Both the position numbers and the translations under genes were made by a program. Below are positions 42,535 to 63,242 of a DNA stretch of 64,000 nt, piece by piece. The DNA is taken from assembly GCA_023664605.1 (NCBI GenBank), contig JAMPFF010000002.1, positions 287,930-351,929 of the forward strand, in the 5' to 3' direction. The notes beneath the pieces were generated by a model, which had not been told where the DNA came from, ran no database searches, and was given only the letters and a program-made list of their open reading frames with translations. The stretch comes from Clostridium sp. GTDB lineage: Bacteria > Bacillota > Clostridia > Lachnospirales > Lachnospiraceae. Every line of letters starts with the position of its first letter. Position 1 is the first letter of the stretch.

Positions 42535-42690
42535 TATAATAATGTGAGAAGAACTTCTAATTGCCTATGGCAATATTCACTCAGGCAGCAAAAGCCTGAT
42601 TTTCAGGCTTGGCTGTTTCGTGAAGAAGTTCTACGACTTGCGAAACAAGTCTTTCTCACATCAAAGAATGCCCACAGTACGGGCATTCTT
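42535..42690 (+). ncRNA. Branched structured RNA element A, leader of tex
   Basis: Starts at a TATAAT (42535-42540). Helices: P1 ATGTGAGAA/TTCTCACAT (42542-42550, 42653-42661), P2 AGAACTTC/GAAGTTCT (42550-42557, 42625-42632), P3 TTGCC-TAT-GGCAA (42561-42573), P4 AAGCCTGA/TCAGGCTT (about 42592-42611), P5 GACTTG-CGAAA-CAAGTC (42635-42651), P6 AAGAATGCCC/GGGCATTCTT (42664-42690). Copy B at 53269 has the same order. Ends 37 nt before the tex start. Confidence 0.65.
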
Positions 42691-42727
42691 CGTATAGGCA
42701 GGTTATGGAAAGGGTACGGTTATAGAA

Positions 42728-45118
42728 ATGGATATTATTTTAAAGTTAAAAGAAGAACTCAAGGTGGAAAAGTGGCAGGTGGAAGCTGCCGTGAAATTGA
42801 TAGATGAGGGAAACACTATTCCTTTTATCTCCAGGTACCGTAAAGAGGCGACCGGTTCGTTAAACGACGAGGTGCTGCGCGATTTATATGAGCGATTGAC
42901 ATATCTGCGGAATCTGGAAGAGAAAAAAGAACAGGTCTTAAAAAGCATCGAAGAGCAGGGCAAGCTGACGGATGAATTAAAAGAGCGTATTGTGCAGGCG
43001 GAGACGATGGTGGTTGTGGACGATTTATACCGTCCGTACCGCCCGAAGAGAAAAACAAGGGCGAGCGTGGCGAAAGAAAAAGGGCTGGACGGACTTGCAG
43101 ACTATATTATGGCACAGAACGCCGAAACACCTATAGAAGAGGAAGCGGCAAAGTATCTGCATGAGGATGAGGACGCCGCGAAAGCGGTGGGTACGGTGGA
43201 AGAGGCGATTCAGGGAGCAAAAGACATTATTGCGGAATTGATTTCCGACGAGGCGGATTATCGTATTTATATACGAAATATCACCATGGAAGAGGGGAAG
43301 ATTGTCAGTACGGCCAAGGACGAAAAGGCGCAGAGCGTGTACGAGATGTACTATCAATACGAGGAGCCGGTTAAAAAAGCGGCAGGACACCGTATCCTCG
43401 CGCTGAACAGGGGCGAAAACGAGAAATTCCTGGCGGTGAAGATTGCTGCGCCGGAGGAACGTATTTTACAATATCTGCGGACAAAAGTTATCACAAGCGA
43501 TAACGCCGTTACCACGCCGATTCTGGAAGAGGTTATTTCTGACAGCTATGTCAGATTGATTGCGCCTGCGATTGAGCGGGAAATCCGTAACGATTTGACG
43601 GAAAAAGCGGAGGACGGTGCAATCTCCGTATTCGGTAAGAATCTGGAGCAGCTTCTTTTGCAGCCGCCGATTGCCGGAAAGGTCGTGCTGGGATGGGATC
43701 CGGCATTCAGAACGGGATGTAAACTTGCCGTTGTGGATGAAACCGGCAAGGTATTGGATACGAAAGTCATTTATCCGACCGCGCCGCAGAATAAAGTGGA
43801 AGAAGCAAAGGCGGAGTTAAAGAAGTTAATCAAAAAATATCATGTTTCCCTGATTTCCGTGGGAAACGGTACGGCTTCCAGGGAATCGGAGCAGGTTATC
43901 GTAGAATTGTTAAAGGAACTGGATACGCCGGTGCAGTATGTCATTGTCAATGAGGCGGGCGCGTCCGTATATTCCGCAAGTAAGCTGGCAACGGAGGAGT
44001 TCCCGAATTTTGATGTAGGACAAAGAAGCGCGGCCTCCATAGCGAGAAGATTGCAGGACCCGCTGGCGGAACTTGTCAAAATCGACCCAAAATCCATCGG
44101 CGTCGGGCAGTATCAGCATGATATGAACCAGAAGAAACTAAGCGACGCGCTAAACGGCGTCGTGGAAGACAGTGTCAATAAAGTCGGCGTGGATTTGAAT
44201 ACGGCGTCGGCGTCGTTACTCGAATATGTTTCCGGCGTGACAAAAGTAATTGCCAGAAATATCGTGGAATACAGAGAGACGAACGGGCGTTTTACCGATA
44301 GAAAGCAGTTGTTAAAAGTAGCGAAATTAGGACCGAAAGCTTTTGAACAGTGCGCGGGATTTATGCGTATTACGGATGGGGATAATCCGTTAGATGCGAC
44401 CAGCGTGCATCCGGAATCCTATGAAGCGGCGAAAAAGCTTTTGGACAAGATGGGGCTTACGATGGAGGACGTCAAAGAGGCGCAGAAAAAAGCTGCAGCC
44501 GAGAAAGCGGCGGGCAAAAAGACTCCTGCAAAAGAAAAACCGGCGAAAAAGCCCAAAGAGGTCGTTATCCGTAATACCAATACGGCAATGGGGCGTGCGC
44601 TTGCCGCGGCGATGGGCGGCGTAGTGTTGGAAGATAATGGGGCAAAATCTGCGAAAGGAAAGGCGAATAGCGCGGCGGCGGAAAAAACGGAAGTATCCGC
44701 AAGCGGTCTGGAGAAGAAAATCAAGGATAAAAAGAAACTTGCCGAGGAACTCGGTATTGGCGAGATTACGCTGACGGATATTTTAAAAGAGCTGGAAAAA
44801 CCGGCGAGAGACCCGCGTGATGATATGCCTGCGCCGATTCTGCGAAGCGATGTATTGGATATGAAAGATTTAAAACCCGGCATGATTTTAAAGGGTACGG
44901 TTCGTAATGTCATTGATTTTGGCGCATTTGTGGATATCGGCGTACATCAGGACGGTCTGGTGCATGTCTCCCAGATGACGGATAAATTCATCAAACATCC
45001 GCTCGAGGCGGTCAGCGTCGGCGACGTCGTTGATGTGCAGGTGCTTTCCGTCGATATGGACAAAAAGCGGATTGCATTGACAATGAAGATTGGAAAAGAT
45101 GTTTTGCAAAAAGGATAA
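42728..45118 (+). CDS. tex: Tex-family S1 RNA-binding transcription accessory protein
   Basis: 796 residues: N-terminal helical domain, YqgF-like nuclease-fold domain with VVLGWDPAFRTGCKLAVVDE near residue 320, helix-hairpin-helix region near 490-560, and a C-terminal S1 domain (about 715-790, GMILKGTVRNVIDFGAFVDIG). An Ala/Lys/Glu-rich low-complexity insertion (about 585-680) between HhH and S1 makes it somewhat longer than usual Tex. Tex is an essential or conserved nucleic-acid-binding protein implicated in transcription. Start ATG 42728; the ribosome site is distant (GAAAGGG). Confidence 0.94.
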   Translation: MDIILKLKEELKVEKWQVEAAVKLIDEGNTIPFISRYRKEATGSLNDEVLRDLYERLTYLRNLEEKKEQVLKSIEEQGKLTDELKERIVQAETMVVVDDLYRPYRPKRKTRASVAKEKGLDGLADYIMAQNAETPIEEEAAKYLHEDEDAAKAVGTVEEAIQGAKDIIAELISDEADYRIYIRNITMEEGKIVSTAKDEKAQSVYEMYYQYEEPVKKAAGHRILALNRGENEKFLAVKIAAPEERILQYLRTKVITSDNAVTTPILEEVISDSYVRLIAPAIEREIRNDLTEKAEDGAISVFGKNLEQLLLQPPIAGKVVLGWDPAFRTGCKLAVVDETGKVLDTKVIYPTAPQNKVEEAKAELKKLIKKYHVSLISVGNGTASRESEQVIVELLKELDTPVQYVIVNEAGASVYSASKLATEEFPNFDVGQRSAASIARRLQDPLAELVKIDPKSIGVGQYQHDMNQKKLSDALNGVVEDSVNKVGVDLNTASASLLEYVSGVTKVIARNIVEYRETNGRFTDRKQLLKVAKLGPKAFEQCAGFMRITDGDNPLDATSVHPESYEAAKKLLDKMGLTMEDVKEAQKKAAAEKAAGKKTPAKEKPAKKPKEVVIRNTNTAMGRALAAAMGGVVLEDNGAKSAKGKANSAAAEKTEVSASGLEKKIKDKKKLAEELGIGEITLTDILKELEKPARDPRDDMPAPILRSDVLDMKDLKPGMILKGTVRNVIDFGAFVDIGVHQDGLVHVSQMTDKFIKHPLEAVSVGDVVDVQVLSVDMDKKRIALTMKIGKDVLQKG

Positions 45119-45128
45119 GCCGAAAGGC

Positions 45129-45821
45129 TTATTCTTTTTCGTTATCGGAATGCGACATGTTAGCAATTTTTTTAAGCGTACTGTTTAGGCCTAATAATAC
45201 GAAAATGTCATCCTGTCTTGTAGGGGCGTCTGCGGATGGATTGATGACTAATGCGCCGTTTCGTTTGATGGCGATAACATTGACCCCGTATTTTTCACGC
45301 AGTTTCAGTTCCTGTAAGTTTTTGCCTGTCCAGCTTTGCAGCGCGCAGACGTCGGCAATCGAGTATTCTGCCGTCAGTTCAATCGCATCAAACAGGTTGC
45401 TGAATGCCAAATCGTTTGCCAGATGAATGCCCATTTCTTTTTCGGGATAGATAATCTCATCAACGCCGATTTTGGTTAATATTTTGCCCTGCATCTCATC
45501 ATACGCCTTGGCAATAATTTGTGGGATGCCCTGTTCCTTTGCCCAGATTGCGGCCAGTACGGAAGCATCTAAACTATGGCCGATAGAGATAATTGCGCCG
45601 TCAAAGTTTCTGCCGCCAAGTTCCTGTAAGGCTTCTTCGTTTGTGACATCGACGCACATAGCGAGGGTGACATATTCGGAAATCTGATGCACCTGTTTTT
45701 CGTGACGATCGATGGCAAGCACTTTGCACCCGTTCGCTTCCAGTTGTTTGGCAATGCTGCGGCCGAAGCGTCCGAGACCGATTACGATATATTCTTTTTG
45801 ATTATTCTTATTTTTTTTCAT
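45129..45821 (-). CDS. ktrA: KtrA-type potassium uptake regulator (RCK domains)
   Basis: 230 residues: RCK_N Rossmann domain with VIGLGRFGRSIAKQLE, and RCK_C in the last 80 residues. It forms a cytoplasmic ring that gates the KtrB channel, and it binds ATP/ADP or c-di-AMP in known systems. Downstream of ktrB by 29 nt in the same minus-strand operon; tex converges on it. Confidence 0.94.
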   Translation of the reverse strand: MKKNKNNQKEYIVIGLGRFGRSIAKQLEANGCKVLAIDRHEKQVHQISEYVTLAMCVDVTNEEALQELGGRNFDGAIISIGHSLDASVLAAIWAKEQGIPQIIAKAYDEMQGKILTKIGVDEIIYPEKEMGIHLANDLAFSNLFDAIELTAEYSIADVCALQSWTGKNLQELKLREKYGVNVIAIKRNGALVINPSADAPTRQDDIFVLLGLNSTLKKIANMSHSDNEKE

Positions 45822-45850
45822 CTGAATTAACCCTTTCTTTTCTTTTATAA

Positions 45851-47203
45851 TTAACCAATGGTAATTTTGCTTTCGGCATAGGAAATATTGTCGCTTGGCT
45901 GATGGCTGTTAAAGGCTAATGCAAGTGTAATCGGGCCGATACGGCCTAAGTACATAGTAACGACAATAATTAATTTCCCGACAACATTCAACTGCCCGGT
46001 CAGTCCTCGGGAAAGCCCGACGGTGGCAATGGCGGAAGTCATTTCATACAGTGTATCTAAAAAATTGCTTCTTTGCACGGCTAAGAGGGCAATCGTCAAT
46101 ACGAACAGGGTGGAGAGTGAGAAAGTGACGATGGCGACGCATCTTCTTATGGTTTCATCCGAAATTTTCCTGTTCATGATGATAACGTCCTTTTTTCCTT
46201 TGATATTGGCAAACATGGACGCAAGCAGTAAAACGATGGTTACGGTTTTGACGCCTCCCGCCGTTCCTGCCGGGGAGCCGCCTATAAACATCAAAATAAG
46301 ATATGTAAGACAGGAGGCTGGGCGGAAACATTCCTGTGGGATAGTGGCAAAACCCGCAGTTCTGAGGGTAATCGACTGAAAAAAGGCGGACATTATCTTT
46401 CCCGTCCAGTTCATATTTCCTAACGTGTCAGGGTTGTCATATTCAAATAAAAGCGTCAGGGCGGCGCCCAATAGGATAAAAAACAGGGTGGAAAAAAGGA
46501 CAATTTTCGTGTGGAGATTCATTTTACGCCTGTAAAGGTTCTTTTGTGTATGTCGGCGGGAGGATGCCGCTCTTGCGATTTCCCAATAGACGGGAAAGCC
46601 CAGCCCGCTGACAATAATAAGAAACATGGTCGTTATATTTAACAGGACATTGTCGGTATAATTACAGAAGCTGTTTTCTCCCAATAAGTCGATACCGGCG
46701 TTGCAGAAAGCGGAGACCGCATGGAAAATGCTGTACCAGATACCCTTTACGCCGAATTTGGGAAGAAAAACAAAGGCATATCCAATGGCGCCGATTCCTT
46801 CGAGACAGAATGTCGCTTTTAGAATCTTCACTGTCAGTTTAACTAAACCGGACAGTGTATCGAGATTATAGGCGTTTTGGATTAGCATTCTGTCGGAGAG
46901 CGTGATTTTACGGTGAAAAATCAATAGGACAATGGTAGTGAAAGTGACGATGCCCAGACCGCCGACCTGAATGAGCAGTAAGATAACAATCTGTCCGAAT
47001 GTGGAAAAAGTCTGTCCGATATTGACGGTGGAAAGTCCGGTAACGCAGATGCCGGACATAGCCACAAATAAGGCGTCAAAGCCATTGATGGCAATACCCG
47101 GCCTGACGCTGCATGGAAGCAAAAGACATCCTGTTCCCAAAACGGCGCCCAAAAAGAAACCTAACATGATAATCCGGGTTGTGCTTAATCTGCGTTTTTT
47201 CAT
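45851..47203 (-). CDS. ktrB: KtrB-type potassium channel/transporter subunit
   Basis: 450 residues, four repeated M1-P-M2 units of the TrkH/KtrB fold with helices throughout. Selectivity-filter glycines are visible in MSGICVTGLSTVN, HAVSAFCNAGIDL, SITLRTAGFATI and SAIATVGLSRGL. It imports potassium with Na+ coupling in known members. Leads the operon; promoter TTGCTA-N17-TATAAT lies upstream on the same strand. Confidence 0.95.
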   Translation of the reverse strand: MKKRRLSTTRIIMLGFFLGAVLGTGCLLLPCSVRPGIAINGFDALFVAMSGICVTGLSTVNIGQTFSTFGQIVILLLIQVGGLGIVTFTTIVLLIFHRKITLSDRMLIQNAYNLDTLSGLVKLTVKILKATFCLEGIGAIGYAFVFLPKFGVKGIWYSIFHAVSAFCNAGIDLLGENSFCNYTDNVLLNITTMFLIIVSGLGFPVYWEIARAASSRRHTQKNLYRRKMNLHTKIVLFSTLFFILLGAALTLLFEYDNPDTLGNMNWTGKIMSAFFQSITLRTAGFATIPQECFRPASCLTYLILMFIGGSPAGTAGGVKTVTIVLLLASMFANIKGKKDVIIMNRKISDETIRRCVAIVTFSLSTLFVLTIALLAVQRSNFLDTLYEMTSAIATVGLSRGLTGQLNVVGKLIIVVTMYLGRIGPITLALAFNSHQPSDNISYAESKITIG

Positions 47204-47256
47204 AAGAGACCTCTGTATGTGAAGAATTTTTCATTTTGCCTGTATTTTCTTTCTGC

Positions 47257-47285
47257 ATTATATAACGATTTGCAGGATGTAGCAA
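47257..47285 (-). promoter_or_regulatory. ktrBA promoter
   Basis: Minus strand TTGCTA (47280-47285), 17-bp spacer, TATAAT (47257-47262). No c-di-AMP ydaO-type riboswitch was seen in the 53-nt leader. Confidence 0.8.
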
Positions 47286-47305
47286 GCAGTGACACAAAAA
47301 ACTTC

Positions 47306-47334
47306 TTGCCTTTTAGTCGAAACAGTATTACAAT
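47306..47334 (+). promoter_or_regulatory. ribU promoter
   Basis: TTGCCT (47306-47311), 17-bp spacer, TACAAT (47329-47334), just upstream of the FMN riboswitch. Divergent from the ktrB promoter with about 20 bp between the -35 boxes. Confidence 0.8.
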
Positions 47335-47352
47335 AAGTCCGATATAGAAAGG

Positions 47353-47541
47353 TAGTTCTTCGGGGTCGGGTGAAATTCCCTACTGGTGGTGAGGTTTGCC
47401 GATTGACTGTAAATGTTACGGCAGACGAGTCCACGACCCGGTTATTCATGAAAGAAGCACGCTGCGGCATAGTGTGGAATAATCGGCTGATACGGTCCAA
47501 ATCCGTAACCAACAGTAAAGTCTGGATGAAAGAAGAAGCAG
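47353..47541 (+). promoter_or_regulatory. FMN riboswitch (RFN element)
   Basis: Conserved segments are present in order: TTCTTCGGGG, GGGTGAAATTCCC, a GGTGGTGAGGT region, GAGTCCACGACCC, GGCTGATACGGTCCAAATCCG and CAACAGTAAAGTCTGGATG. The variable arm after GACCC is unusually long, with a CGGTTATTC/GAATAATCG extension. FMN binding should favour the terminator at 47562 and shut off ribU. Confidence 0.96.
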
Positions 47542-47561
47542 TATTTCACATGTCATGATAT

Positions 47562-47592
47562 CCCCGAGTCCTGTTTATTCGGGGATTTTTTT
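47562..47592 (+). terminator. Expression-platform terminator of the FMN riboswitch
   Basis: CCCCGA (47562-47567) pairs with TCGGGG (47579-47584), followed by ATTTTTTT. It stands between aptamer and ribU. Confidence 0.9.
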
Positions 47593-47673
47593 GTGAAGTA
47601 GAAAGCGAAGTAAGCGAAGATCTTCCTTTTTGTCAATTTATTAAAAATGCGATAAAAAACGGAGGAAGAAAAA

Positions 47674-48432
47674 ATGGATGGATTATTACAAAGCATTCAG
47701 GAAAATGTAGTGTTTTTGCTGGAGTTTCTGGCGGTGGTTGCGGCGTTGTTTGGCGCGGCCTATGTGGCGGAGAAGACAGCGGGAAAGAAAAAAGGCGTCA
47801 CAGAGAGAATTTTAAGTACCAGAAAAATTGCTATGATAGGGATGTTTTCGGCAATTTCCGCAATTTTAATGTTATTTGAACTGCCGATGCCTTTTGCGCC
47901 CTTTTTCTATAAGCTGGATTTTAGTGAACTTCCGGCGCTGATTGCGGCTTTTGCATTCGGTCCGGCAGCGGGCGTGCTGGTTGAATTTTGTAAGATTGTT
48001 TTGAAACTGTTATTAAAGTCAACTTCTACGGCTTTTGTGGGGGAACTGGCAAACTTTGCGGTAGGATGCAGCTTTGTGCTGCCCGCTTCCGTGCTGTATC
48101 TGTTCCATAAGAGTAAGAAAATGGCGGTGGCAGGCTGTGTGATTGGAACGATTGTTCTGACGGTTTTCGGAACCGCTTTTAACGCCGTTTATCTGCTTCC
48201 GAAATTTGCACAGCTATATGGTATGCCATTAGAGGCTTTAATCGGCATGGGAACCGAAATCAATGCGGCCATTACGGATGTTACCAGTTTTGTCTGTTTT
48301 GCGGTGGCGCCCCTTAATCTGATTAAAGGAACGAGCGTTTCCGTTGTCACCTTACTGGTTTATAAATCTTTAAGCCCGATTTTAAAAGAGAGCGGACTCA
48401 AAGCGCGGGCGCACAAGGCCGCGGATGCATAA
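47674..48432 (+). CDS. ribU: Riboflavin ECF transporter substrate-binding (S) component RibU
   Basis: 252 residues; about five to six helices with RibU motifs LPMPFAPFFYKLDFSELPALIAAFAFGP near the start of the S-domain and GTAFNAVYLLPKF. N-terminal 45 residues form an extra helix plus a lysine-rich linker not usual in RibU. Takes up riboflavin, with energy from a shared EcfAA'T module encoded elsewhere. FMN riboswitch control confirms the ligand class. Confidence 0.94.
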   Translation: MDGLLQSIQENVVFLLEFLAVVAALFGAAYVAEKTAGKKKGVTERILSTRKIAMIGMFSAISAILMLFELPMPFAPFFYKLDFSELPALIAAFAFGPAAGVLVEFCKIVLKLLLKSTSTAFVGELANFAVGCSFVLPASVLYLFHKSKKMAVAGCVIGTIVLTVFGTAFNAVYLLPKFAQLYGMPLEALIGMGTEINAAITDVTSFVCFAVAPLNLIKGTSVSVVTLLVYKSLSPILKESGLKARAHKAADA

Positions 48433-48460
48433 AAAAGCTTAACATTGGGAGGCGGAAGTT

Positions 48461-49138
48461 GTGTACCGGATTTTGATAGTGGAAGATGATGCGGTTATCT
48501 TAGAGCAGGTCAGCAGGCATTTGAGAAAATGGGGCTATGAAGTAGAGGGCGTAACGGATTTTAATAACGTTTTGGCGGATTTTGCCGGATTTTCTCCCCA
48601 GCTAGTCCTGATGGATATCGGGCTGCCATTTTATAATGGTTACTACTGGTGCGGAGAAATCCGTAAGATATCGCAGGTTCCGGTTATTTTCCTCTCTTCC
48701 GCTTCCGATAACATGAATATCATTATGGCGGTCAATATGGGCGGTGATGATTTTATTGCCAAACCCTTTGATTTGGAGGTATTATCGGCTAAGATTCAGG
48801 CCATTTTGCGAAGAAGTTATTCTTTTTGCGAGCAGGCAGCCGTTTTGGAATACCGGGGCGTCGTGTTAAATATGACAGATATGTCGCTTTTGTATGACGG
48901 GAAAAAGACGGAGCTTTCCAAGAACGAATTTAAGATATTGCAGATTTTATTTGAAAACGCGGGCAGTCCTGTGTCACGGGAAGATATTATGAGGCGTCTG
49001 TGGGATGATGAGTGTTTTGTGGATGACAATACGCTGACAGTGAATGTGAACCGCCTGCGCAAATCGCTTGAAGAAGCGGGTTTAACGGATTTTATTATGA
49101 CAAAAAAGAAAGTAGGCTATCGGCTGTATCGGGAATAA
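48461..49138 (+). CDS. BceR-type response regulator
   Basis: 225 residues beginning GTG 48461 after GGGAGGCGG. Receiver domain with EDD near 7, phospho-acceptor in VLMDIGLP, and KPFD; winged-helix domain with DDNTLTVNVNRLRKSLEE characteristic of the BceR/GraR group. Paired with the kinase 2 nt downstream. A matching box TGACA-N4-TGTAA at the kinase 3' end supports BceR-type regulation of the transporter genes. Confidence 0.93.
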   Translation: MYRILIVEDDAVILEQVSRHLRKWGYEVEGVTDFNNVLADFAGFSPQLVLMDIGLPFYNGYYWCGEIRKISQVPVIFLSSASDNMNIIMAVNMGGDDFIAKPFDLEVLSAKIQAILRRSYSFCEQAAVLEYRGVVLNMTDMSLLYDGKKTELSKNEFKILQILFENAGSPVSREDIMRRLWDDECFVDDNTLTVNVNRLRKSLEEAGLTDFIMTKKKVGYRLYRE

Positions 49139-49140
49139 AG

Positions 49141-50160
49141 ATGGAACATCAGGAAACGTATATCATCAAATCATTCATAAGAGAACATATAAAAGGCTAT
49201 ATTTTATATACTCTTACCATTGTCATTTTATTGGGCGCCGCCAAGCTGTATCATTATGAGGACGCCGTATACAATATGGCTTATGCGGCCGGGGTGATTA
49301 CTTTTCTCATTTCCGTATGCGAGATATGCTATTTTAGCAGATATCGTAAGAGATGCCTGATGTTAATCAATGCCAAACCCAAACGGGGAGAGCGGTCGTT
49401 TTATCTGCCGGATGACAGGTCATATCCGGAGAAACTCTACAAAGACATGATAACCATGATAGAAGAGGAAGAAAGAGAACTGGCTACGGAATGCGATGAA
49501 ATGAAGCAGGATGTCTCGGATTATTATACGATGTGGGCGCATCAGATGAAGACGCCGATTGCGGCCCTGCGGTTATTGTTAAAGGATAACATGCAGGCGC
49601 TTGAGGAATTGTGCAAGGTAGAGCAGTATACGGATATGGCGCTGCATTACGCAAGGCTTGACAGTCTTTCATCGGATTTATCGTTACGGCAGCAGGATAT
49701 TTATGAAATGATAAAAACCGCGCTTAAGAAAAATTCCGTTTTCTTTATCGGGAGCAGGAGATTCTTCCAACTGGAGGAATTTTCCATCCATGCAGTAACG
49801 GATGAAAAGTGGGTGTCTTTTGTGATAGAACAGGTTATCTCCAATGCCCTGAAATATACGCCAAAGGGCGGCATCCACATATACGGGCTGGACAGTGGAC
49901 AGGAGAAAACGCACGGGGAGGCTTCTTATGTTGTGATTGAAGATACCGGAATCGGTATCAGGCAAGAGGATTTACCACGTATCTTTGAGAGGGGCTTTAC
50001 CGGTTATAACGGACGGCTGGATAAAAGAGCCACGGGAATCGGATTGTATCTGTGTAAACAGATAATGGACAGGCTTTCCCATACGATTTGGGTAGATTCG
50101 CAAATGGGGCATGGAACGAGAGTAACGCTTGGCTTTTTGCAAAAAGTGACAAAAATGTAA
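49141..50160 (+). CDS. BceS-type intramembrane-sensing histidine kinase
   Basis: 339 residues: two N-terminal helices with almost no outside loop (about 20-36 and 43-63), the dimerisation/phospho-acceptor segment with MWAHQMKTPIAALRLLL (H near residue 132), N-box VISNALKYT, and GIGLYLCKQI. The short sensor is typical of Bce kinases, which read the activity of their transporter. Stop codon overlaps the BceR box. Confidence 0.93.
   Translation: MEHQETYIIKSFIREHIKGYILYTLTIVILLGAAKLYHYEDAVYNMAYAAGVITFLISVCEICYFSRYRKRCLMLINAKPKRGERSFYLPDDRSYPEKLYKDMITMIEEEERELATECDEMKQDVSDYYTMWAHQMKTPIAALRLLLKDNMQALEELCKVEQYTDMALHYARLDSLSSDLSLRQQDIYEMIKTALKKNSVFFIGSRRFFQLEEFSIHAVTDEKWVSFVIEQVISNALKYTPKGGIHIYGLDSGQEKTHGEASYVVIEDTGIGIRQEDLPRIFERGFTGYNGRLDKRATGIGLYLCKQIMDRLSHTIWVDSQMGHGTRVTLGFLQKVTKM
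50147..50160 (+). promoter_or_regulatory. BceR-type binding box
   Basis: TGACA-AAAA-TGTAA, an exact match to the published BceR-group consensus TNACA-N4-TGTAA. It overlaps the kinase stop codon and lies 98 nt upstream of the transporter ATPase start. Confidence 0.8.
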
Positions 50161-50166
50161 GGTTTC

Positions 50167-50212
50167 AAAAGGAAATGTAAGCTGAATCTATGGCAGTGCA
50201 TTTCCTTTTTTT
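50167..50212 (+). terminator. Attenuator/terminator between kinase and transporter genes
   Basis: AAAAGGAAATG (50167-50177) pairs with CATTTCCTTTT (50199-50209), followed by T7 (50206-50212). It splits regulator genes from transporter genes, so the transporter is likely transcribed from its own regulated promoter or by read-through. Confidence 0.75.
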
Positions 50213-50257
50213 GTATCCTAAGTTGAAAGAATAAAAAGTGTAAAGGAGGCGCAAGAC

Positions 50258-51022
50258 ATGGCAATATTAGAAGTGAAAAATGTGAAAAGAGTGTATACCA
50301 CTCGTTTGGGCAGTGTGAAAGTACAGGCGTTAAGCGATGTGAATTTTTCCGTGGAAGAGGGAGAGTATGTGGCGATTATGGGAGAATCCGGCTCCGGAAA
50401 AACGACGCTTTTAAATATTTTGGCTTCGTTGGATAAGGCGACCAGCGGACAGGTATTTTTGCGGGAGAAAAATATTTCGGAGATAAAACAAAAAGAAATC
50501 TGTGCTTTCCGCAGGGAGCATCTCGGTTTTGTTTTTCAGGATTTTAATTTATTGGATACGTTGTCTCTCAGGGATAATATTTTCCTGCCAATGGTGCTTT
50601 CGGGAGCGGCGTATACGGAAATGGAAGAACGGATTGTGCCGTTGGCGGCGCGCTTATCCATAGATGATGTATTGGAAAAATATCCGTATGAAGTTTCCGG
50701 CGGACAAAAGCAGAGGGCGGCCGTATGCCGGGCATTGATTACAAGACCGGATATTATTCTTGCTGATGAGCCGACAGGGGCGCTGGATTCCAAGGCCTCG
50801 GGGAAATTGTTAAAACTGTTTGAAGAGATAAACGGCGAAGGACAGACCATTCTGATGGTGACGCACAGCATTCAGGCGGCAAGCTATGCCGGACGCGTTT
50901 TGTTTATTAAGGACGGCTGTGTGTTTCATCAGATATATAGGGGCGGCCAGAGCAAAGAGGCTATGTATCGGATGATTTCGGATGCCCTTACGGTATTGCA
51001 GTCGGAAAAAGGAGGGCAGTAG
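50258..51022 (+). CDS. BceA-type ABC ATPase for peptide-antibiotic detoxification
   Basis: 254 residues: Walker A GESGSGKT near residue 39, Q-loop FVFQDFNLLDTL, signature VSGGQKQRA, Walker [17 protein letters not shown] switch. MacB/BceA family. It removes antimicrobial peptides such as bacitracin together with the BceB-type permease that starts 1 nt after its stop. Ribosome site AAAGGAGG. Confidence 0.94.
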   Translation: MAILEVKNVKRVYTTRLGSVKVQALSDVNFSVEEGEYVAIMGESGSGKTTLLNILASLDKATSGQVFLREKNISEIKQKEICAFRREHLGFVFQDFNLLDTLSLRDNIFLPMVLSGAAYTEMEERIVPLAARLSIDDVLEKYPYEVSGGQKQRAAVCRALITRPDIILADEPTGALDSKASGKLLKLFEEINGEGQTILMVTHSIQAASYAGRVLFIKDGCVFHQIYRGGQSKEAMYRMISDALTVLQSEKGGQ

Positions 51023-51023
51023 G

Positions 51024-53033
51024 ATGAAAAAGTGGAAATTGCTTCCGAAAATGGCCCTAAAAGGGATTGTCTCCAACGGAATGGTCTATTATCCTTATAT
51101 GATTGCGACTGTTTTTTCGGTCTTTACTTATTTTGTCTTTTGCGCTATTTTGCATAACGATTTAGCAAGTATTCTGCCTTACAGGGCATATGCGTGGATC
51201 ATACTGGAAATGGGGAAGTTCCTTTTAGCTGTTATTTTGTTTATTTTTCTGTATTATGCAGGCAGTTTTATCATCAAGAGACGAAAGGCGGAAATTGGAT
51301 TGTACAGCCTGCTGGGGTTGGAAAAAAAGCATATCGCCATAATGCTGTTTTGGGAAACGTTGATTTTATATGGTGTAACGATGACGGGAGGTATTGCTGC
51401 GGGCATTGTTTTATCCAAAATGTTATTTCTCATTTTGCTGCGGATGAGCGGTATTTCCCTGAATTTAAAGTTTGCTTTTGAGGTGGAAGCTTTTGGGGAG
51501 ACTCTTGGATATTTTGGCGTTGTTTTTTTGTCTTATTTTGTATGTCAGATGTGGGAAATCGGAAAATCGCGCCCGACGCAGCTTATGAGCAGCGCCAGAA
51601 AGGGGGAGAAAGAACCGCGTTTTCTTGGCGTGTGGTCTGCTACCGGTATCGTGGTTTTGGCGGTTGGCTATTATAATGCCGTCAATGCCAAGGCGGACTC
51701 CATGATTTTCATTAACTTTTTTCTGGCGGTATTTTTGGTGGTTATCGGAACCTATTTTATCTTTACATCGGCCAGTGTATGGTTTTTAAAGAGGATGCGC
51801 CGGAATAAAAAAATATATTACAGGGCGAAGAATTTTATTACAATTTCGGGGATGTATTACCGAATGAAAAAGAACGCGGCAGGGCTTGTTAATATCTGTA
51901 TTTTTTTTACCATGATGCTGATTACCCTGACCTGTACCGTATCTTTGTATCTGGGGCTTGATGGCGTGATAAATTATATGGCGCCTTACGATATGGAAAT
52001 GGAGTTTAGCGAGGAAGAAAACGGCGTTACACCGGAAGCGTTTGCAAAAGAGATTGCAGGGCTGGAAGAGGCGTACGGTGTAAAAGCGCAGCGCATGGAT
52101 TTGTTCGACAGTATTTCCTTATCGTGTTCTGTCGAGGGAAACGCAGTTGAAATGAAAAAAGAGGATGCGTATGACGAGCGAAATTACGGCGTTGTGATTA
52201 TGACGTTACAAGAGTATGAAAATCTGACAGACGATAGAGTGGAAATGGCGGAGAATGAAGTTATCATTCATACGCAGGGAGAGGACTTCGACTTTGAAAC
52301 ATTGCGGTTTATGGGAATCGAAAGCCGGGTAAAAAAAGAAGTGAGTAAGCTGTATCCTTATCCGAAAGCGGAAGAAAACAAAACCGGAAAATATGTCATT
52401 ATCGTACGCGATAAAAAGACGCGGGATGAATACGTCGAAGCATGGGCGCGGCAAAATGGCGTGGAGGATATGGAGTCTTTTTTAAAAAGCGGAAGAGTAA
52501 AGGCGGGGCTTGTATTAGAGGGTACGGAAGAAGAAAAGAGCGCTTTTATAGAGGAATGCAGCGTATTGGGACAGGCGCAGCCCGGATTTCTTTCCTGGCA
52601 AAACGGACTGGAAAAGAAAGGAGAATTACACTCCGAGTATGGCGGACTTTTGTTTATTGGCGTCATATTTGCGGTTAATTTTTTTTTATGCCTGATAATC
52701 ATTATGTATTATAAGCAGATTTCCGAGGGGTATGAAGACAGGAATAACTATGATATTATGCAGAAAGTCGGAATGAGCGGGGAAGAAATCAAAAGCACGG
52801 TTCATAAGCAGATTCTTCTGGTATTTGGGCTGCCGCTTTTGGGGGCTGTTGCACACACGTGCGCAGGCATGTTTATGATAGAGAAACTGATGGTTATTAT
52901 CGGCTTTTACAACGTCGGGATTATGGCGGCGTGTGCAGCGGGCGTTACGGTGTTTTTTGCGGTAGTTTATATTATCAGTTACTTAAAGACGGCCGGGGCA
53001 TACTACCGGATTGTAAACCGCAGACATTCCTAA
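51024..53033 (+). CDS. BceB-type ABC permease (FtsX domains)
   Basis: 669 residues: ten helices, with the family arrangement of four, four and two around a large outside domain (about 330-555) between helices seven and eight. First helices start MALKGIVSNGMVYYPYMIATVF; FtsX-like segments are near 60-180 and 560-660. ATG 51024 follows GGAGGGCAG. The outside domain binds the antibiotic or signals to the kinase in known systems. The specific drug cannot be inferred. Confidence 0.93.
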   Translation: MKKWKLLPKMALKGIVSNGMVYYPYMIATVFSVFTYFVFCAILHNDLASILPYRAYAWIILEMGKFLLAVILFIFLYYAGSFIIKRRKAEIGLYSLLGLEKKHIAIMLFWETLILYGVTMTGGIAAGIVLSKMLFLILLRMSGISLNLKFAFEVEAFGETLGYFGVVFLSYFVCQMWEIGKSRPTQLMSSARKGEKEPRFLGVWSATGIVVLAVGYYNAVNAKADSMIFINFFLAVFLVVIGTYFIFTSASVWFLKRMRRNKKIYYRAKNFITISGMYYRMKKNAAGLVNICIFFTMMLITLTCTVSLYLGLDGVINYMAPYDMEMEFSEEENGVTPEAFAKEIAGLEEAYGVKAQRMDLFDSISLSCSVEGNAVEMKKEDAYDERNYGVVIMTLQEYENLTDDRVEMAENEVIIHTQGEDFDFETLRFMGIESRVKKEVSKLYPYPKAEENKTGKYVIIVRDKKTRDEYVEAWARQNGVEDMESFLKSGRVKAGLVLEGTEEEKSAFIEECSVLGQAQPGFLSWQNGLEKKGELHSEYGGLLFIGVIFAVNFFLCLIIIMYYKQISEGYEDRNNYDIMQKVGMSGEEIKSTVHKQILLVFGLPLLGAVAHTCAGMFMIEKLMVIIGFYNVGIMAACAAGVTVFFAVVYIISYLKTAGAYYRIVNRRHS

Positions 53034-53268
53034 ACTACTGCTAAAATACTACCGGAAGGAGTATGGAATAAAGTAATATGGCAGGATAAGATATTTTAAG
53101 GTTCGGTTAAGATTACGCGTGAAGTGTATTAAGGTTAGACCGATATGATTGTGTTCATAAGGCACGGGCGCGGGAAAAAGGATGCGTTAAAGGAATGGAG
53201 GGAAAATCTTTGGAAAATTTTAAGAAAATCTTTGAAGACATTTTATGGGTTTGGAACGTTATATATAG

Positions 53269-53382
53269 TATAATAACGCGAGAAGAACTTCTAGAGCTTA
53301 TGCCAGAGGGCATTTCGCTAAGAAGTTCTACGATTTGCTTTGCAAATCTTTCTCGCGTAGAAGAACGCCGTAGGCGTTCTTC
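53269..53382 (+). ncRNA. Branched structured RNA element B, copy of the tex leader fold
   Basis: Starts at TATAAT (53269-53274). P1 ACGCGAGAA/TTCTCGCGT (53276-53284, 53350-53358), P2 AGAACTTCT/AGAAGTTCT (53284-53292, 53321-53329), P3 ATGCC/GGCAT (53300-53313), P5 GATTTGC-TTT-GCAAATC (53332-53348), P6 GAAGAACGCC-GTA-GGCGTTCTTC (53360-53382). CTAC joins P2 to P5 as in copy A. A separate promoter follows at 53413, so this may be a free small RNA. The remaining upstream part of the 451-nt gap (53034-53268) holds a short hairpin ATACTACC/GGAGTAT (about 53047-53067), two TTAAGGTT repeats near 53096 and 53131, and nothing else clear. Confidence 0.65.
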
Positions 53383-53412: not shown

Positions 53413-53443
53413 TTGACAACTGATATATACTGTTATATACTGT
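53413..53443 (+). promoter_or_regulatory. Promoter of the MacAB-like operon with tandem repeats
   Basis: Consensus TTGACA (53413-53418), 17-bp spacer, TATACT (53436-53441). The decamer TATATACTGT is repeated head to tail (53424-53433, 53434-53443) across spacer and -10, a likely operator for a repressor. Confidence 0.8.
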
Positions 53444-63053: not shown

Positions 63054-63090
63054 GTGTGAAAAATCACACTGATGTGCTGATTTTTCACAC
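63054..63090. repeat. 13-bp inverted repeat after ispD
   Basis: GTGTGAAAAATCA/TGATTTTTCACAC (63054-63066, 63078-63090), with outer flanks ATAGT and ACTAT also able to pair around one bulge. No T-run afterwards. Confidence 0.85.
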
Positions 63091-63092
63091 GA

Positions 63093-63203
63093 CTATTTGT
63101 TTCTGAGCGAAAACAAATAGCCCTGATGGCAGACGAGAGAATCACAATACTGCAAGCAGTATGCGAATTTCTCGTCGCCTCTTCGCGACAAGTCGCTCAG
63201 AAA
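63093..63203 (+). promoter_or_regulatory. Branched leader structure before the terminal gene
   Basis: Outer helix TTTCTGAGCGA/TCGCTCAGAAA (63100-63110, 63193-63203) competes with CTATTTGTTT/AAACAAATAG (63093-63102, 63111-63120). Inside: GACGAGA/TCTCGTC (63132-63138, 63170-63176) enclosing ATACTGC-AA-GCAGTAT (63147-63162), and GCGAC-AA-GTCGC (63185-63196). Confidence 0.55.
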
Positions 63204-63242
63204 TGAGGATTAATATTTGCCGGAAAACGGGTGAGCAGGCAT

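Follow-up and report, generated by a model that had tools for sequence, protein, structure and literature searches.

Repetitive extragenic palindromes (REPs) of the GTAG superfamily, which go together with RAYT transposases, are described as often supplying the TAG stop codon to flanking open reading frames with their termini (PMC3733652), and work cited in the RepRanger paper found that translation is lowered by E. coli REPs that lie no more than 15 nt from a stop codon (PMC12306157). In addition, template switching has been published as a source of double stem changes in RNA hairpins that arise in one event (PMC8794818). Here we analyze a stretch of 64,000 nucleotides of Clostridium sp. from the family Lachnospiraceae (contig JAMPFF010000002.1, positions 287,930 to 351,929; the whole stretch is called the window below), which carries two branched palindromic elements, A ahead of tex and B ahead of an ABC-transporter operon. 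A and B belong to a large dispersed repeat family of Lachnospiraceae, of which no description was found among the literature matches listed. In the reading that we favor, and that we consider probable though by no means certain, they represent a modular palindromic repeat of high copy number that is carried in mRNA and resembles REPs or miniature inverted-repeat transposable elements (MITEs).

Fold and geometry of the repeat family

A and B share one multibranch fold, as an earlier note made from the sequence alone had claimed, and the order that it had read in both elements, namely TATAAT, P1, P2, a variable P3/P4 part, a CTAC joint, P5, TTTCTC and P6, was recovered in place (Table 1). Element A (42541-42662) folds at -54.3 kcal/mol (z -9.2) and element B (53273-53360) at -39.7 kcal/mol (z -6.1); for neither was any of 200 dinucleotide shuffles as stable. 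The paired changes that the note had seen between the P1 stems of A and B stand as well, but the extent of P1 had to be corrected, since across the family it spans 8 bp and is followed by a 9-bp P2. This P2 (AGAACTTCT/AGAAGTTCT) directly adjoins P1; the joint behind it runs on to P5, after which the strand returns to P1, and P6 is external to this core.

The covariance model R1, built from ten copies of the window's own genome with B included and A excluded, matched A at 42539-42661 with 66.1 bits (E 1.1e-16) and B, one of its ten sequences, with 99 bits. In the window it returned A and B alone at E up to 1, a third row being B on the opposite strand. In the own genome 31 rows reached E of at most 0.01; as two of these are other rows read in antisense, about 29 places remain. 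Searching there with the DNA of B returned 14 rows, of which two were parts of A and some were weak. R1 furthermore matched 58 of 60 genomes of the same genus and, with 14 candidates scored per genome, at least 20 of 297 genomes from other genera of the family; outside the family, 38 genomes of the order gave 0 matches. The earlier note had allowed for there being no further copies with the same fold; many more carry it. By Pfam, the genes next to the copies are unrelated (Tex, Cpn60, Hsp70, SecY).

An exact P2-P5 pattern found 41 loci in the named genome collection, 34 of them in one metagenome-assembled genome (MAG; CAMWXB). By record title, 38 of the loci belong to Lachnospiraceae; the other three (L118, L121, L125), found in two MAGs, carry the names Bacillus sp. 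and Ruminococcus sp., of which the Bacillus sp. title looks misassigned. Spread by phage or plasmid found no support in two narrow tests, as IMG/VR viral contigs gave 0 matches to this one exact pattern and plasmid records no match to B at E 1e-3.

The family keeps its stem geometry, with the letters left free. We scanned for a P2 of the form AG-N5-CT followed by A that has an exact reverse complement and adjoins a mismatch-free P1 of 7 bp or more, the letters of P1 being left open. In 1.40 Mb of partly overlapping loci enriched for R1 matches, this stem scan found 137 distinct copies, versus 0 in one triplet-shuffled pass. P1 measured 8 bp in 111 copies, 9 in 18, 7 in 6 and 10 in 2, and the 137 copies held 46 different P1 8-mers and 16 P2 sequences. 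The joint between P2' and P1' took 3-4 nt in 25 copies and 19-24 nt, then including P5, in 112. The family plan is an 8-bp P1 on a 9-bp P2, in most copies with an A after each P2 strand; the inner hairpins are interchangeable or optional, P5 is optional and a trailing P6 is usual. In G008, G053 and G030, R1 has no match in the tex leaders (L402, L404, L406), yet the same geometry is present there.

Covariation is the standard proof of functional RNA, and the earlier note had judged that A and B look like a selected RNA fold and not a chance palindrome. Among 79 distinct copies from other genomes, 97.1% of 2,368 cells pair in an alignment that was fitted to the model and hence favors structure. 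Both-side changes amount to 347 cells compared with 94.6 in shuffles, none of 500 of which reach that number, and with a maximum of 82 in slid controls; covariation, the absence of which the note had named as a possible outcome, thus exceeds every shuffle. A conserved branched fold beyond chance is thereby borne out. Paired changes alone do not prove RNA selection in this family, however, because G-U pairs are rare compared with the FMN riboswitch and because three of nine cores are rewritten between closest relatives. In minimum-energy pairs G-U accounts for 27 of 2,621 in the 79 copies and for 53 of 3,419 in a partly overlapping 106-copy set (1.0-1.6%), compared with 61 of 970 (6.3%) in 25 FMN riboswitches of the same genus, 42 of 290 (14.5%) in their variable stem and 12.6% in letter-shuffled copies. 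tRNA was dropped as a further G-U control, as 36 scanned loci held one tRNA. When 25 nearest-neighbor pairs of copies with inner cores at most 3 bases apart were compared, P1 differed on both sides at 22 bp and on one side at 8, and 19 of the 22 both-side differences were Watson-Crick in both copies. Rare G-U pairs together with core rewriting fit DNA-level copying of the palindrome better than stepwise RNA compensation.

Placement at stop codons and -10-like boxes

Placement was assessed at 157 distinct places (27 in the own genome), 155 of which had enough upstream sequence, with open frames of at least 80 codons. By one and the same rule, 115 of 155 copies start at a stop codon, compared with 28 of 1,118 control positions in the same loci. 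With a threshold of 60 codons, the counts were 120 of 155 versus 54 of 1,177, and with 100 codons 107 of 155 versus 18 of 1,057. The main offsets to the stop were -1 (54 copies), +2 (28), -6 (14) and -19 (5), and stop-placed copies often read TA-G, with the G being the first base of P1. A further 19 copies, A and B among this class, begin one base past a box that agrees with TATAAT in 5 or 6 of its 6 letters, compared with such boxes at 9 of 1,118 controls. Under an earlier gene-calling rule, 61 copies lay away from stops; 22 of them had a box of this quality at positions -7 to -2 exactly, compared with 0-2 at each of six shifted offsets. Of 96 stop-placed copies, 11 had one.

Most copies hence occupy the upstream edge of an untranslated stretch. 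Between co-directional genes, 62 of 76 copies are anchored at the stop, versus 12.2 under uniform placement in the spacer, and the maximum in 20,000 simulations was 26. Bases -3 to -1 are mostly ATA, with A at -1 in 95% of stop-placed and 93% of other copies, T at -2 in 67% and 80%, and G at -3 in 9% and 3%, respectively.

The earlier note had suggested that a start just after TATAAT would put the 5' end at P1. Transcription usually starts about 7 nt from a -10 box, and a start at this distance past the box would land inside P1 and not at its first base. The promoter scan placed neither the TATAAT of A nor that of B in a promoter-like pair. Moreover, a separate promoter-like site lies between B and the operon, so that B need not be an operon leader.

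Turnover between relatives and competing explanations

At nine orthologous filled sites compared between closest relatives, core identity was 49% at tex (element A), 49% at secY and 67% at L045, compared with 86-93% in the flanks; the other six sites had cores 82-99% and flanks 64-100% identical. At tex, the closest relative G034 retains the flanks and a nearly unchanged P6, whereas the core is replaced, and several species show by eye the TATAAT box with no element behind it. B differs from its closest orthologue by one fully compensated pair in the 83-nt core, compared with flank differences of about 4-6%. In a third species, G043, the region upstream of B is conserved and the same fold is built from different P1 and P2 letters; the box before B reads TATAAT there and TAGGAT in the closest relative. 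G043 also has swapped inner hairpins, one of them closely similar to a module of A, an element directly followed by another (L105), three whole copies in tandem, repeating every 113 nt (L133), and, between dnaK and dnaJ (L157), repeats of the element's 5' half. The half repeats and the tandems suggest replication slippage at the hairpin.

Presence of the element is sporadic. SecY ends in NYKGFLND in 28 of 30 loci, which are those that were parsed, unchanged or nearly so with or without an element; the element lies at the stop codon in several loci, and in a few a P6-like hairpin stands alone. In all 30 loci read, the C-terminus of DnaK is VVDGDYREV or close to it. Among these the full element between dnaK and dnaJ is found in the own genome, G034, G029 and G043 only; two others have a degraded one, and the remainder have none or something else in its place. 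Querying G034 with the joined flanks of 21 own copies led to seven comparisons in detail. Two of these (L059, L050) keep the first bases of the element followed by a deletion, L049 possibly does so by eye, and in four no trace is clear. Elsewhere, G034 has a different hairpin at some sites.

Other hairpins were seen at such sites in their own right. Between secY and adk (L175-L204), about 18 of 28 parsed members of the genus carry by eye an unrelated conserved hairpin, GGGACG..CGTCCC, and the own clade carries the repeat. At the same post-stop sites in some relatives (L240, L238, L148, L151, L249) there is another pair of hairpins, TA-G.TTGAAA..TTTCAA.C and behind it GCGAGTTTGTGC..CACAAACATCGC, or a form akin to this pair.

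A cis-acting mRNA element, with a fold that is read by a nuclease, an RNA-binding protein or the ribosome and selected at every site, and with ordinary compensatory evolution of its stems, would agree with the strong polarity and register toward stop codons and -10-like boxes, with the constant 8+9 bp geometry at free letters and with the fold of B, which three species retain (G043 with changed letters in P1 and P2) and which differs from the closest orthologue by one compensated pair while its flanks diverged. We nevertheless think it rather unlikely, as its G-U content stays below the 6.3-14.5% of a known RNA of the same genus, full elements occur at only 4 of 30 dnaK-dnaJ loci and the entire core was replaced at 3 of 9 sites. 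A riboswitch-like regulatory RNA was rejected on similar grounds, since covariation is present but G-U is scarce and the neighboring genes are unrelated. The base preferences at -1 and -2, and the dispersed, sporadic and partly tandem copies, would rather suit a classical MITE that prefers TA targets and is mobilized by a transposase in trans, with stops and -10 boxes serving as harmless TA sites. Uniform use of the spacer then predicts about 12 copies at stops where 62 of 76 were observed, however. No duplicated target turned up, the paired ends P1/P1' do not enclose P6, and the own genome lacks the Y1 family, the one transposase family searched for. In our view these points make a classical MITE improbable. 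Hardly credible is a family of free-standing small RNA genes, to which the TATAAT-like box adjoining P1 in A, B and others and P6 at the 3' end might point: most testable copies abut a stop codon, P6 of A and B was not scored as a terminator, and a start about 7 nt past the box would cut P1. Among the guesses of the earlier note (small RNA, cis-leader or transposable hairpin unit), a transposable or dispersed hairpin unit thus comes closest, and the free-standing small RNA is not favored.

Several observations weigh against the mRNA-carried, REP- or MITE-like repeat that we favor. The sample of copies is biased toward high scorers with R1, itself made from ten own-genome copies, and 21 of 155 copies fit neither the stop nor the box placement. 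The polarity toward stops and -10 boxes can mean RNA selection and not insertion preference, and scarce G-U pairs can also come from selection for very stable stems. In P1, P2 and P5 taken together, G-U outnumbers A-C (28 to 10 and 16 to 11 in two overlapping sets), a hint of tolerance at the RNA level, although in P3 the order is reversed (A-C over G-U, 28 to 10 and 21 to 6), mostly at one pair. Two or three of the absences in G034 are deletions with a remnant, an insertion with exact borders was never seen, and a search by eye for target-site duplications in the comparisons of the own genome with G034 found no clean one. Finally, no mobilizing enzyme was identified in a search for the Y1 family (PF01797), other transposase families not being searched. 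PF01797 is present in 24 of 60 genomes of the genus, with three matches each in G038 and G048, and absent in the own genome, G043 and G033; G033, G038, G043 and G048 all hold at least 45 copies of the repeat.

If A and B are indeed copies of such a repeat, their letters would be renewed at the DNA level, either through synthesis templated by the hairpin (template switching) or through recombination of one copy with another. Both arms would then change together and G-U intermediates would be rare. Recombination is an equal candidate because the new tex core in G034 resembles by eye another own copy, L053. Least certain is the role of the transcript, for which analogy with REPs or clostridial 3' stem-loops is our guide: the mRNA fold might close in the immediate wake of a terminating ribosome or, in box copies, close to the 5' end, and might act as a local barrier that stabilizes or insulates the neighboring cistron. 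We may also speculate, with some hesitation, that the family is a standing pool, spread over a bacterial genus, of palindromic cassettes locked in geometry (8 bp + 9 bp) and free in letters, which are exchanged or rewritten through DNA hairpins at the upstream edges of untranslated stretches and would show perfect covariation without stepwise RNA selection. A dedicated enzyme that reads helix length and not sequence may place these cassettes at stops and -10 boxes.

Neighboring features and comparison with known systems

Table 1. Features of the window around elements A and B and the second repeat family
Feature	Position	Strand	Remark
TATAAT box 5' of A	42535..42540	+	final base 1 nt short of P1
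A core	42542..42661	+	shuffle-tested fold, covariance-model match
A P1, 8 bp	42542-42549 with 42654-42661	+	ATGTGAGA/TCTCACAT
A P2, 9 bp	42550-42558 with 42624-42632	+	
A P3/P4 modules	42560-42623	+	then joint TAC
A P5	42635-42640 with 42646-42651	+	
A P6 hairpin	42664..42690	+	AAGAATGCCC/GGGCATTCTT
TATAAT box 5' of B	53269..53274	+	
B core	53276..53358	+	fold, model match, orthologues in two other genomes
B P1, 8 bp	53276-53283 with 53351-53358	+	ACGCGAGA/TCTCGCGT
B P2, 9 bp	53284-53292 with 53321-53329	+	
B P3	53295-53319	+	
B P5	53332-53338 with 53342-53348	+	
B P6 hairpin	53360..53382	+	GAAGAACGCC/GGCGTTCTTC
Promoter-like TTGACA-17-TATACT	53413..53441	+	between B and ABC-transporter operon; promoter scan
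Second-family member (earlier "third member")	63054..63212	+	not matched by R1; aligned by eye

By Pfam, the gene behind A encodes Tex, and those behind B encode ABC_tran, HlyD and MacB_PCD/FtsX proteins. An intrinsic terminator, i.e., a GC-rich hairpin with a T run, was sought on the + strand at A and B, and no terminator-like site was found there. Neither element matches a known Rfam RNA at gathering scores, and relaxed thresholds gave weak matches far below these. The sole Rfam family that reaches the gathering score in the window is the FMN riboswitch (RF00050) at 47352-47541, ahead of an open reading frame at 47674.

The earlier note had proposed 63132-63176 as a third diverged member. 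R1 misses this segment, and 63054-63212 matches a separate repeat family. In the own genome, its pattern TGATGGCAGACG..CGTCGC gave 20 rows at 17 distinct places, and the reversed pattern gave 0. Its members start TA-G, with a hairpin in many rows, and finish with an AATGGAG-like stretch, and an ATG frame of at least 92 codons begins within 60 nt behind the pattern in 20 of 20 rows. Members of the second family hence seem to carry a ribosome-binding site, although the copy in the window has no ATG at that spot. Rfam gave no match near the gathering score on 63054-63212. The second-family loci (L280-L299) are dispersed, structured and just upstream of start codons, and one copy (L281/L282) is flanked on both sides by ATGGAGGTTA, like a target duplication.

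The A/B family is of interest beyond this window. Strong covariation, few G-U pairs and core replacement together make it a natural test of whether template switching or recombination at the DNA level can mimic RNA selection, and a constant stem geometry with rewritten letters is an unusual test case for the evolution of paired sequences. REP-like biology would be extended to Lachnospiraceae, with anchoring at stops and -10-like boxes that is exact to the base. Dozens of unannotated structured elements would be added per richer genome, for example between dnaK and dnaJ, between secY and adk and behind groEL.

Template switching (PMC8794818) predicts double stem changes with rare intermediates, which is what the A/B family shows. 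However, it is described there for RNA genes, whereas A and B are dispersed repeats in which module swapping or recombination is a rival cause. Clostridial stem-loops of selective RNA processing and stabilization are likewise stable, intergenic in operons and proposed to confer differential stability (PMC4423207, PMC8219983). In these descriptions they are hairpins of particular operons, in contrast to the A/B family, in which one repeat of fixed geometry lies next to many genes.

GTAG REPs share with the A/B family their nature as dispersed palindromes near genes, and their subfamilies have alternative complementary stem residues (PMC3733652). As in REPs, the palindromes are high-copy, extragenic and dispersed. 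According to the same source, GTAG REPs are hairpins of 20-40 bp in which G-T pairs are often observed, whereas copies of the A/B family are mostly multibranch structures of 60-150 nt with fixed 8+9 bp stems, a few reduced copies near 60 nt and rare G-T pairs. The A/B family also differs in that it occurs in Lachnospiraceae. The unpaired GTAG tag that marks one end of REPs is missing, the bases before P1 being mostly ATA, and no RAYT (Y1 transposase, PF01797) was found in the own genome. Membership in the GTAG REPs was hence rejected by tag, size and RAYT. Bacterial MITEs and other small mobile repeats (PMC2229807) are, like the A/B family, non-coding, multicopy and sporadic, and in most copies of the A/B family a TA stands by the 5' end. 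No consistent duplicate of this TA is seen by eye at the 3' side, and seven comparisons of the own genome with G034 gave no exact border. Unlike in MITEs of that description, P6 lies outside the P1/P1' ends; the P1 arms close the core, P6 follows and the 3' border is not fixed. The A/B family cannot yet be called a MITE. As a dispersed palindrome that flanks genes, it resembles both REPs and MITEs.

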